Source: Bacteroidota bacterium (GTDB lineage Bacteria; Bacteroidota; Bacteroidia; Flavobacteriales_D; Crocinitomicaceae). Taken from it: a stretch of 44,807 bases of DNA. The translations under genes and the position numbers were made by a program. Below the pieces are notes generated by a model. It saw only the letters and a program-made list of their open reading frames with translations, was not told where the DNA came from and made no database searches. Below, piece after piece: positions 30,934 through 34,528 of this stretch (position 1 is its first letter; each line of letters starts with the position of its first letter). The stretch spans positions 1-44,807 of the forward strand of contig VGFL01000012.1 in assembly GCA_016868915.1 (NCBI GenBank), in the 5' to 3' direction.

Positions 30934-31806
30934 CTACAAAGATAAGTAGGGTTTTAATTTTTCAAAACATTCTTCATCAATTAAAACAGATTCTTTTATC
31001 TCATCGATTGCGGTATAGCCTTGTTTTCTTTCACGTATTTTTATAATTGAATTTGCGATGTTCCAATTTAAATATGGATGCTTTTTCAAGTCTTCAATTG
31101 TAATTGAGTTTAATTTTAATTTGGAAATCTTCTCAATATTAACCATTACATATGGTTCTATTTGTAGAAATTTTTCCACGTCAATTTTCCAAACTTCCAA
31201 TAATTGTTCGGATTTCGTGAATCCCCCTAAGCGCGTTCTGTAATTAATAATCCATTTGGCAAAATACTCTCCGATACCAGGAATTTTTACCAAATCTTCT
31301 TGAGATGCAGTGTTTAATTCAACTAGAATCTTAGGTTTTTCAGTTTTGGTGTCTGATTTTTTAATAGGGTTTTCTGATTTTTCAAATATTGGATAGTAGG
31401 TAGAATCCTTTATCAGTTCGAATAGCTCATCAGATAGTACAAAAACGCGCTTAAGGTCTTCATTTGATTTAATCCCACGAGAGGTGAATTTCAATACAAC
31501 ATTTGCTTGTTTTTCGCTTAAGCCTAATTGCATCCAATCCTTCAACTCATATTGATTTGGGTCAAATTTTGAAGGAGGAACATTGTATCGACTCTTATTA
31601 CCGCCTTGGTCAAAAAAGCTTGATTTTTTATTCTTCTTATATTTTGCTATTTTATTTTTTAATTCGGTAATTTCTGATTCAGAAATTTTAATACTTGATT
31701 CTGTGCGATCCATTGCAAGTAATAGTCGTGGAATGTATACAATAATAATTGATACAATAATAACCCATACAAGCGCTTGTCTATTTCTTTTGGAGATGTA
31801 GGGCAT
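30934..31806 (-). CDS. Helix-hairpin-helix (ComEA-like) membrane-anchored protein
   Basis: N-terminal TM and HhH motifs 'VELNTASQEDLVKIPGIGEYFAKWIINYRTRLGGF'. Confidence 0.88.
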   Translation of the reverse strand: MPYISKRNRQALVWVIIVSIIIVYIPRLLLAMDRTESSIKISESEITELKNKIAKYKKNKKSSFFDQGGNKSRYNVPPSKFDPNQYELKDWMQLGLSEKQANVVLKFTSRGIKSNEDLKRVFVLSDELFELIKDSTYYPIFEKSENPIKKSDTKTEKPKILVELNTASQEDLVKIPGIGEYFAKWIINYRTRLGGFTKSEQLLEVWKIDVEKFLQIEPYVMVNIEKISKLKLNSITIEDLKKHPYLNWNIANSIIKIRERKQGYTAIDEIKESVLIDEECFEKLKPYLSL

Positions 31807-31811
31807 TGATC

Positions 31812-31949
31812 TTATTCAGCATCATTCTCCGAAAAGGAATCTGGTTCCTGCTTACTTGGAGTTTTTAAGATTTTCAAAAAGAAATAGACCGTTATAATCG
31901 TTACAAAAATTTCAGTAACGAGCATCATTATTAATCCCTCCGTGCTCAT
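31812..31949 (-). CDS. 45-aa single-TM microprotein, candidate MetS-like NSS transporter small subunit
   Basis: Not in ORF track; MSTEGLIMMLVTEIFVTIITVYFFLKILKTPSKQEPDSFSENDAE*; start codon overlaps the NSS stop codon (ATGA). Confidence 0.7.
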   Translation of the reverse strand: MSTEGLIMMLVTEIFVTIITVYFFLKILKTPSKQEPDSFSENDAE

Positions 31950-33814: not shown

Positions 33815-34528
33815 TTAATCTTTGGAAATTTCGTCTATGGAAATTTGATTAATTAAGCTTTCTAATATGCCATCAATTCGCTTTCTTTCTTTTTCCCAAG
33901 TATTTTTAAAATTGTTCGAATTAATGGAAAATATAGCTACACCATTTTCTAATTCATAAAAGCCTGCTAGTGCAATTGTTCCATTTAAGGTACCTGTTTT
34001 TGCATAGATTTTTCCTTGATGATTTAGTAGCCGTTTTTGCAATGTTCCTGGTCTGCCAGGTTGCGCCATTAATGTTTTAAAAATGTTATAAAACTTATCA
34101 GTATAGATTTTTTCTAGTAAGCTCACCTGCAAATCACAAGTTGTCCGATTATTTTTATTTAATCCTGATCCATCGAAAATGATAAAGTTCTCATCAGTAA
34201 TTCCTTGAATTTGATTTTCAATAAGGTAGTTTTTTAACACCCCAGTGCCACCCGAAAGTATAAATAAACTGTCGGCCTTGTCATTATCACTTTTCATTAG
34301 AATAGTTCGGATACACTCATCTGTTGTATATCCTTGATTAAAACTCATCCATGAAACAAATAATTTCAATGTTGAGGCTGGCGCTAAAGGTAAATCTGAA
34401 AATTGTTTAGAAACAACTCTTGATGAATCATTATAAGGGAAATACTTCATTAAATAAGCTGTGGTTTGTGCAATGCCAACTTTTAAAAAAAGTGTAACAA
34501 ACAAAAAAATATAAACTAAACCCTTCAT
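33815..34528 (-). CDS. Minimal D-Ala-D-Ala carboxypeptidase/PBP4 (S13)-like protein
   Basis: Signal peptide; S52-TLK (SxxK), S80-D-N (SxN), 'FDGSGLN' and K177-T-G in only 237 aa. Confidence 0.78.
   Translation of the reverse strand: MKGLVYIFLFVTLFLKVGIAQTTAYLMKYFPYNDSSRVVSKQFSDLPLAPASTLKLFVSWMSFNQGYTTDECIRTILMKSDNDKADSLFILSGGTGVLKNYLIENQIQGITDENFIIFDGSGLNKNNRTTCDLQVSLLEKIYTDKFYNIFKTLMAQPGRPGTLQKRLLNHQGKIYAKTGTLNGTIALAGFYELENGVAIFSINSNNFKNTWEKERKRIDGILESLINQISIDEISKD

Follow-up and report, generated by a model that had tools for sequence, protein, structure and literature searches.

A conserved MetS-like microprotein encoded behind a LeuT-type symporter in Bacteroidota is probably an accessory subunit

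Does the very short open reading frame (ORF) that overlaps the end of a sodium symporter gene in a Bacteroidota genome encode a protein, and if so, is that protein a subunit of the transporter? We addressed this for a stretch of 44,807 nucleotides (hereafter, the window), which forms contig 12 of a draft genome of 2.2 Mb and carries the only NSS transporter gene of that genome. The original prediction, made from the letters of the DNA, was that the ORF encodes a MetS-type accessory subunit of the transporter. The features of the locus are listed in Table 1.

Table 1 Features of the NSS-microprotein locus, in window coordinates
Feature	Coordinates	Strand	Detail
Helix-hairpin-helix (ComEA-like repeat) gene	30934..31806	-	5 nt behind the microprotein stop
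45-aa single-pass membrane microprotein, MetS-like	31812..31949	-	helix at ~residues 5-30
ATGA overlap of NSS stop (TGA) and microprotein start (ATG)	31946..31949	-	4 nt
590-aa LeuT-type Na+ symporter (PF00209), 12 helices	31946..33718	-	PF00209 match, LeuT comparison
237-aa protein, possible penicillin-binding-type enzyme	33815..34528	-	partial match to S13 carboxypeptidase model

The small ORF is a conserved gene

The ORF reads from ATG to TAA and translates as MSTEGLIMMLVTEIFVTIITVYFFLKILKTPSKQEPDSFSENDAE. Hydropathy analysis found one transmembrane segment (best-scoring residues 6-24, mean 2.29), followed by a polar, acidic tail with the motif EPDSFSEND. This agrees with the hydrophobic helix and polar tail described originally, and the ATGA overlap with the transporter stop is present as claimed. 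We screened 40 relatives and found a small ORF behind the orthologous NSS gene in all same-genus genomes where both were readable and in one genome of another family. These ORFs are hydrophobic in their first half and carry a motif near EPDSFSEND. A similar protein recurs behind the orthologous NSS in same-genus genomes, so chance alone does not account for the ORF.

A homolog profile built from seven small ORFs and extended to 13 recovered 206 relatives in named genomes, of which 80 were kept. They belong to Flavobacteriales, Cytophagales, Chitinophagales, and other Bacteroidota. An NSS gene lies directly ahead on the same strand at all 80 loci (79 by script, and L108 by hand because its NSS alignment extends beyond the stop), and the frame is thereby conserved beside NSS genes in relatives, as had been predicted. 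The 4-nt ATGA overlap is the commonest arrangement (41/80 loci). The comparison of substitution rates proposed at the outset gave a median dN/dS of 0.31, with no value above 1 among 276 close pairs, which indicates purifying selection, and the differences between close pairs fell at codon positions 1, 2, and 3 in proportions of 26, 23, and 51%. Across 93 sequences, M1, F23, L28, D37, and N42 are invariant, and conservation tracks one face of the helix (permutation p 0.0026). The microprotein ORF is a real, conserved protein-coding gene.

The partner transporter groups with LeuT

By sequence comparison, the window NSS is assigned to the LeuT branch and not to the MetP branch. Its closest solved relative is Aquifex aeolicus LeuT (44% identity), which is also its best PDB match (~1e-113); the next solved bacterial relative, 4us3, matches at 4e-47. 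Both proteins have 12 helices and identical residues at the Na1 and Na2 sites. The window NSS differs from LeuT in the substrate site only at F259M and I359M (wild-type F259 and I359 were taken from the names of LeuT mutants), and also in a long charged insert before TM12. Its tail measures 152 residues from the start of TM11 and contains a hydrophobic segment at 562-580. An AlphaFold model of a homolog has the extra helix and matches LeuT. In a tree of 95 NSS rows, LeuT falls within the window-type clade beside L232, a placement that is likely rather than certain because support is 90 and the branch is long. The microprotein at L232 overlaps its NSS stop by 4 nt.

The insert between TM11 and TM12 covers residues ~465-555 of the window NSS and is hydrophilic as well as charged. 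It is shared by L002 and L131 and is missing from the shorter same-genus orthologs L005 and L006 (502 aa).

The microprotein is a distant relative of MetS

MetS is a one-helix protein of ~35-60 aa from the methionine/alanine importer MetPS of Corynebacterium glutamicum (PF16951, NF033493, and NF033494), and MetPS has been described as a two-subunit NSS (PMC3219685). The suggested HMM search against MetS families came back empty: the window protein had 0 matches to the curated models PF16951 and NF033493, even at E 10, and scans of the curated families in Pfam, NCBIfam, and PHROGs gave no match. Among ten divergent relatives, few match the MetS models, and those score only 12-18 bits against cut-offs of 25-26.2, aligning with the models in register from residue 1. 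For some relatives, the match to PsbN is about as good as that to the MetS models, or better. Given these PsbN matches and the failure of the curated MetS models to find the window protein, single-helix similarity carries little weight outside profile tests. Matches to PsbN, DUF3149, and similar sub-threshold hits among the relatives were set aside as single-helix noise.

Profiles were compared with hhalign, using 93 window-type sequences and 14 MetS sequences, one of them from Priestia. The window type aligned with Bacteroidota MetS at a probability of 94.5 and a score of 34.7, residues 1-31 on 1-31 without gaps. The null maxima were 16.0 for 100 column shuffles and 14.9 for 129 windows of the NSS alignment. 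KdpF, CcoS/FixS, and TIGR03647 (sodium/substrate symporter small subunit) are likewise tiny partners of larger membrane proteins; the CcoS and KdpF profiles aligned with the microprotein no better than unrelated helices (18.9 each), and of 13 members, one matched TIGR03647 weakly. At the level of profile comparison, the microprotein is shown to be remotely homologous to MetS. Because PF16951 and NF033493 miss the window protein, it is best described as a divergent branch and not as a MetS member by the curated definition.

The genes for MetS and the microprotein both come directly after an NSS gene and often overlap it, and the two proteins share the same register from residue 1. The window protein lacks the MetS signature W-G-G and, unlike MetS, has YFF-x-K-V/I-L and the acidic EPDSFSEND tail. 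The partners differ too, as MetS accompanies an NSS of the MetP clade, whereas the microprotein accompanies the LeuT clade. True MetS, as defined by the curated model, lies in Bacteroidota behind a second NSS clade that is ~30% identical to the window NSS. Both clades are present in Bacteroidota genomes, each with its own small-subunit type. The idea of a MetS-type accessory subunit thus holds for the linkage to an NSS gene and for remote homology but not for membership in the curated families, and the transporter itself is of the LeuT and not the MetP branch.

In L245, an NSS with true MetS and the sole MetS-clade Bacteroidota NSS that we compared at the LeuT sites, several site residues of LeuT are replaced (T254D, F253W, L25T, and N21I), and its ion or substrate use may therefore differ. 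Haloarchaeal NSS genes are followed by genes for proteins of ~90-105 aa annotated as "hypothetical proteins" (L067 2925-3242 and L263 1996-2268). In L067, this protein has a MetS-like helix at its start, and a longer soluble tail follows.

The microprotein and LeuT-type transporters occur together

We profiled co-occurrence in 396 genomes of the phylum Bacteroidota, counting an NSS as window type at ≥45% identity to the window NSS and detecting the microprotein with profiles A1 and A4, the latter built from the divergent TTxGxIF type. The microprotein was detected in 51 of 51 genomes with a window-type NSS. The same profiles found no convincing copy in the other 345 genomes, where the few leftover matches were partial, within long ORFs, or at E ~0.001-0.01. 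The Fisher p of ~1e-65 ignores relatedness and, because the genomes are related, overstates their independence. The co-occurrence covers 18 family labels, with patchy presence inside families. In seven genomes, the NSS is not followed by a copy (loci L218, L221, L223, L224, L226, L227, and L229), and six of these have an unlinked copy elsewhere (G301, G185, G403, G146, G253, and G340); in G110, the microprotein lies just upstream of the NSS. Since the genes of several relatives lie apart from that of the transporter, coupling, though common, is not essential. These data show that the association of the microprotein with 12-helix LeuT-type NSS is near-obligate, and they suggest that a small partner is a normal part of how LeuT-type transporters work. 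An NSS from Acetoanaerobium (Bacillota), on the same branch and with 39% identity, is likewise followed by a similar short protein, and the pairing may therefore reach outside Bacteroidota.

Five genomes have extra unlinked copies (G293, G411, G289, G261, and G111), which may serve other proteins. Family copies away from any NSS were seen at L044 2686-2790, L045 7204-7404, L046 2202-2312, L052 1972-2109, L058 2815-2943, and L060 2343-2495; in the genomes of these six, there is in addition an NSS that has its own microprotein. Unlinked copies in L283, L285, L264, and L047 lie near a gene resembling 6-phosphofructokinase, and in L047 such a gene is also found 3' of the NSS-microprotein pair. Possibly the NSS has left an ancestral cluster. 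A suspected natural fusion of NSS and microprotein in G334 turned out to be a chance match within a 622-aa protein.

The microprotein follows transporters with a twelfth helix

Helix counts were based on hydropathy and on the length of the tail. An NSS with a tail of ≤31 residues after TM11 was taken as an 11-helix protein, and for seven long tails, including that of the window NSS, the score was set by length because the script had overlooked a helix. The microprotein is absent behind 13 of 13 complete 11-helix NSS examined, from Bacteroidota, Pseudomonadota, Bacillota, Spirochaetota, and Fusobacteriota; among them are the NSS of Bacteroides and Parabacteroides, where the helix-hairpin-helix gene comes next. 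Where the tail is longer (12 helices), the microprotein adjoins the NSS at 146 of 158 loci, a few of which represent the same genome twice. This rule suggests that the microprotein docks at TM12. Since the microprotein is found with LeuT relatives and never with the 11-helix NSS examined, TM12 and the microprotein form a testable unit.

A two-chain model and its alternatives

We consider it probable that the product of the ORF serves the adjacent LeuT-type Na+:amino-acid symporter as a small accessory subunit and represents a divergent branch of the MetS superfamily. By analogy, we infer that the microprotein physically binds the NSS and functions with it. In the model that we propose, the ribosome translating the transporter would stop at the TGA and re-initiate on the overlapping ATG, so that both chains are synthesized together in the membrane. 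The microprotein would insert as one helix with its N-terminus outside and its C-terminus inside, and its conserved face (A5, M9, V16, T20, F23/F24, and V27 in the family consensus) would pack on the transporter, with TM12 or its vicinity as the likeliest site. Once docked, with the acidic tail predicted to face the cytoplasm, it could stabilize or activate the symporter and thereby affect the uptake of a hydrophobic amino acid. An AlphaFold model of a read-through tandem from L166, with the TGA read as W, has the LeuT fold plus a helix at pLDDT ~66-70 and is without a usable interface. Mutual information in the paired alignments exceeded that of shuffles, but the shuffles break relatedness and the signals are unclustered, so we gave this excess no weight.

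LeuT binds and transports alone in vitro, and it has been studied as a single chain, in which form it has often been crystallized. In the papers searched, we found no report of a small subunit of LeuT. Because LeuT crystallized, binds, and transports alone, the partner may be dispensable for the transport cycle itself. The same structures, in which LeuT-type proteins fold and bind substrate without the microprotein, fit a reading as a dedicated NSS assembly factor or regulator (acting in insertion, folding, turnover, or inhibition) and not a stoichiometric subunit. That reading accounts for the same co-occurrence data, and the unlinked copies in some genomes loosen the case for a fixed stoichiometry, but the frequent ATGA overlap and the two-subunit MetPS (PMC3219685) favor a subunit, and we regard a pure assembly or regulatory role as improbable.

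Two further readings have very little to recommend them. The helix-hairpin-helix gene lies behind the microprotein in the window and at 49 of 77 loci, so the microprotein could belong with that gene in DNA uptake, its adjacency to the NSS being accidental. At the other 28 of 77 loci, however, other or convergent genes stand behind the microprotein while the NSS and microprotein are still together. Bacteroides finegoldii and Parabacteroides distasonis have an 11-helix NSS followed by the helix-hairpin-helix gene with no microprotein between them, and unlinked microprotein copies track the NSS type. The helix-hairpin-helix gene is in the same operon in many relatives and is not part of the NSS-microprotein pair; a partnership in DNA uptake is extremely unlikely. 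We give just as little credence to a translated but unimportant by-product, either a re-initiation peptide or a decayed thirteenth helix. The small size and the many homologs that overlap the NSS stop would suit such an origin, but residues are conserved throughout the helix and tail (F23, L28, D37, and N42 are invariant in the 93 sequences), dN/dS is well below 1, and the protein is kept when unlinked from the NSS.

The accessory-subunit reading raises a broader and more tentative idea, which we think doubtful but worth stating: that every 12-helix LeuT-type NSS, Aquifex LeuT included, evolved with a second chain, a MetS-like helix docked near TM12. Among the sampled closest relatives of LeuT, none is without a MetS-like microprotein, even when the genes are unlinked. 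The whole neurotransmitter transporter family has LeuT as its structural model, and LeuT is regarded as a one-chain protein. If the idea were true, the structures and kinetics of LeuT would be those of an incomplete transporter, and TM12 and the subunit would be lost together. The microprotein profile also allows annotation, across Bacteroidota, of short genes that are too divergent for the current MetS models.

The match of the 237-aa protein (Table 1) to the S13 D-Ala-D-Ala carboxypeptidase model is confined to the C-terminal part of the model (278-438 of 444). Motifs resembling SxxK (PASTLK), SDN, and KTG can be recognized by eye, and the protein is possibly a compact enzyme of the penicillin-binding type.
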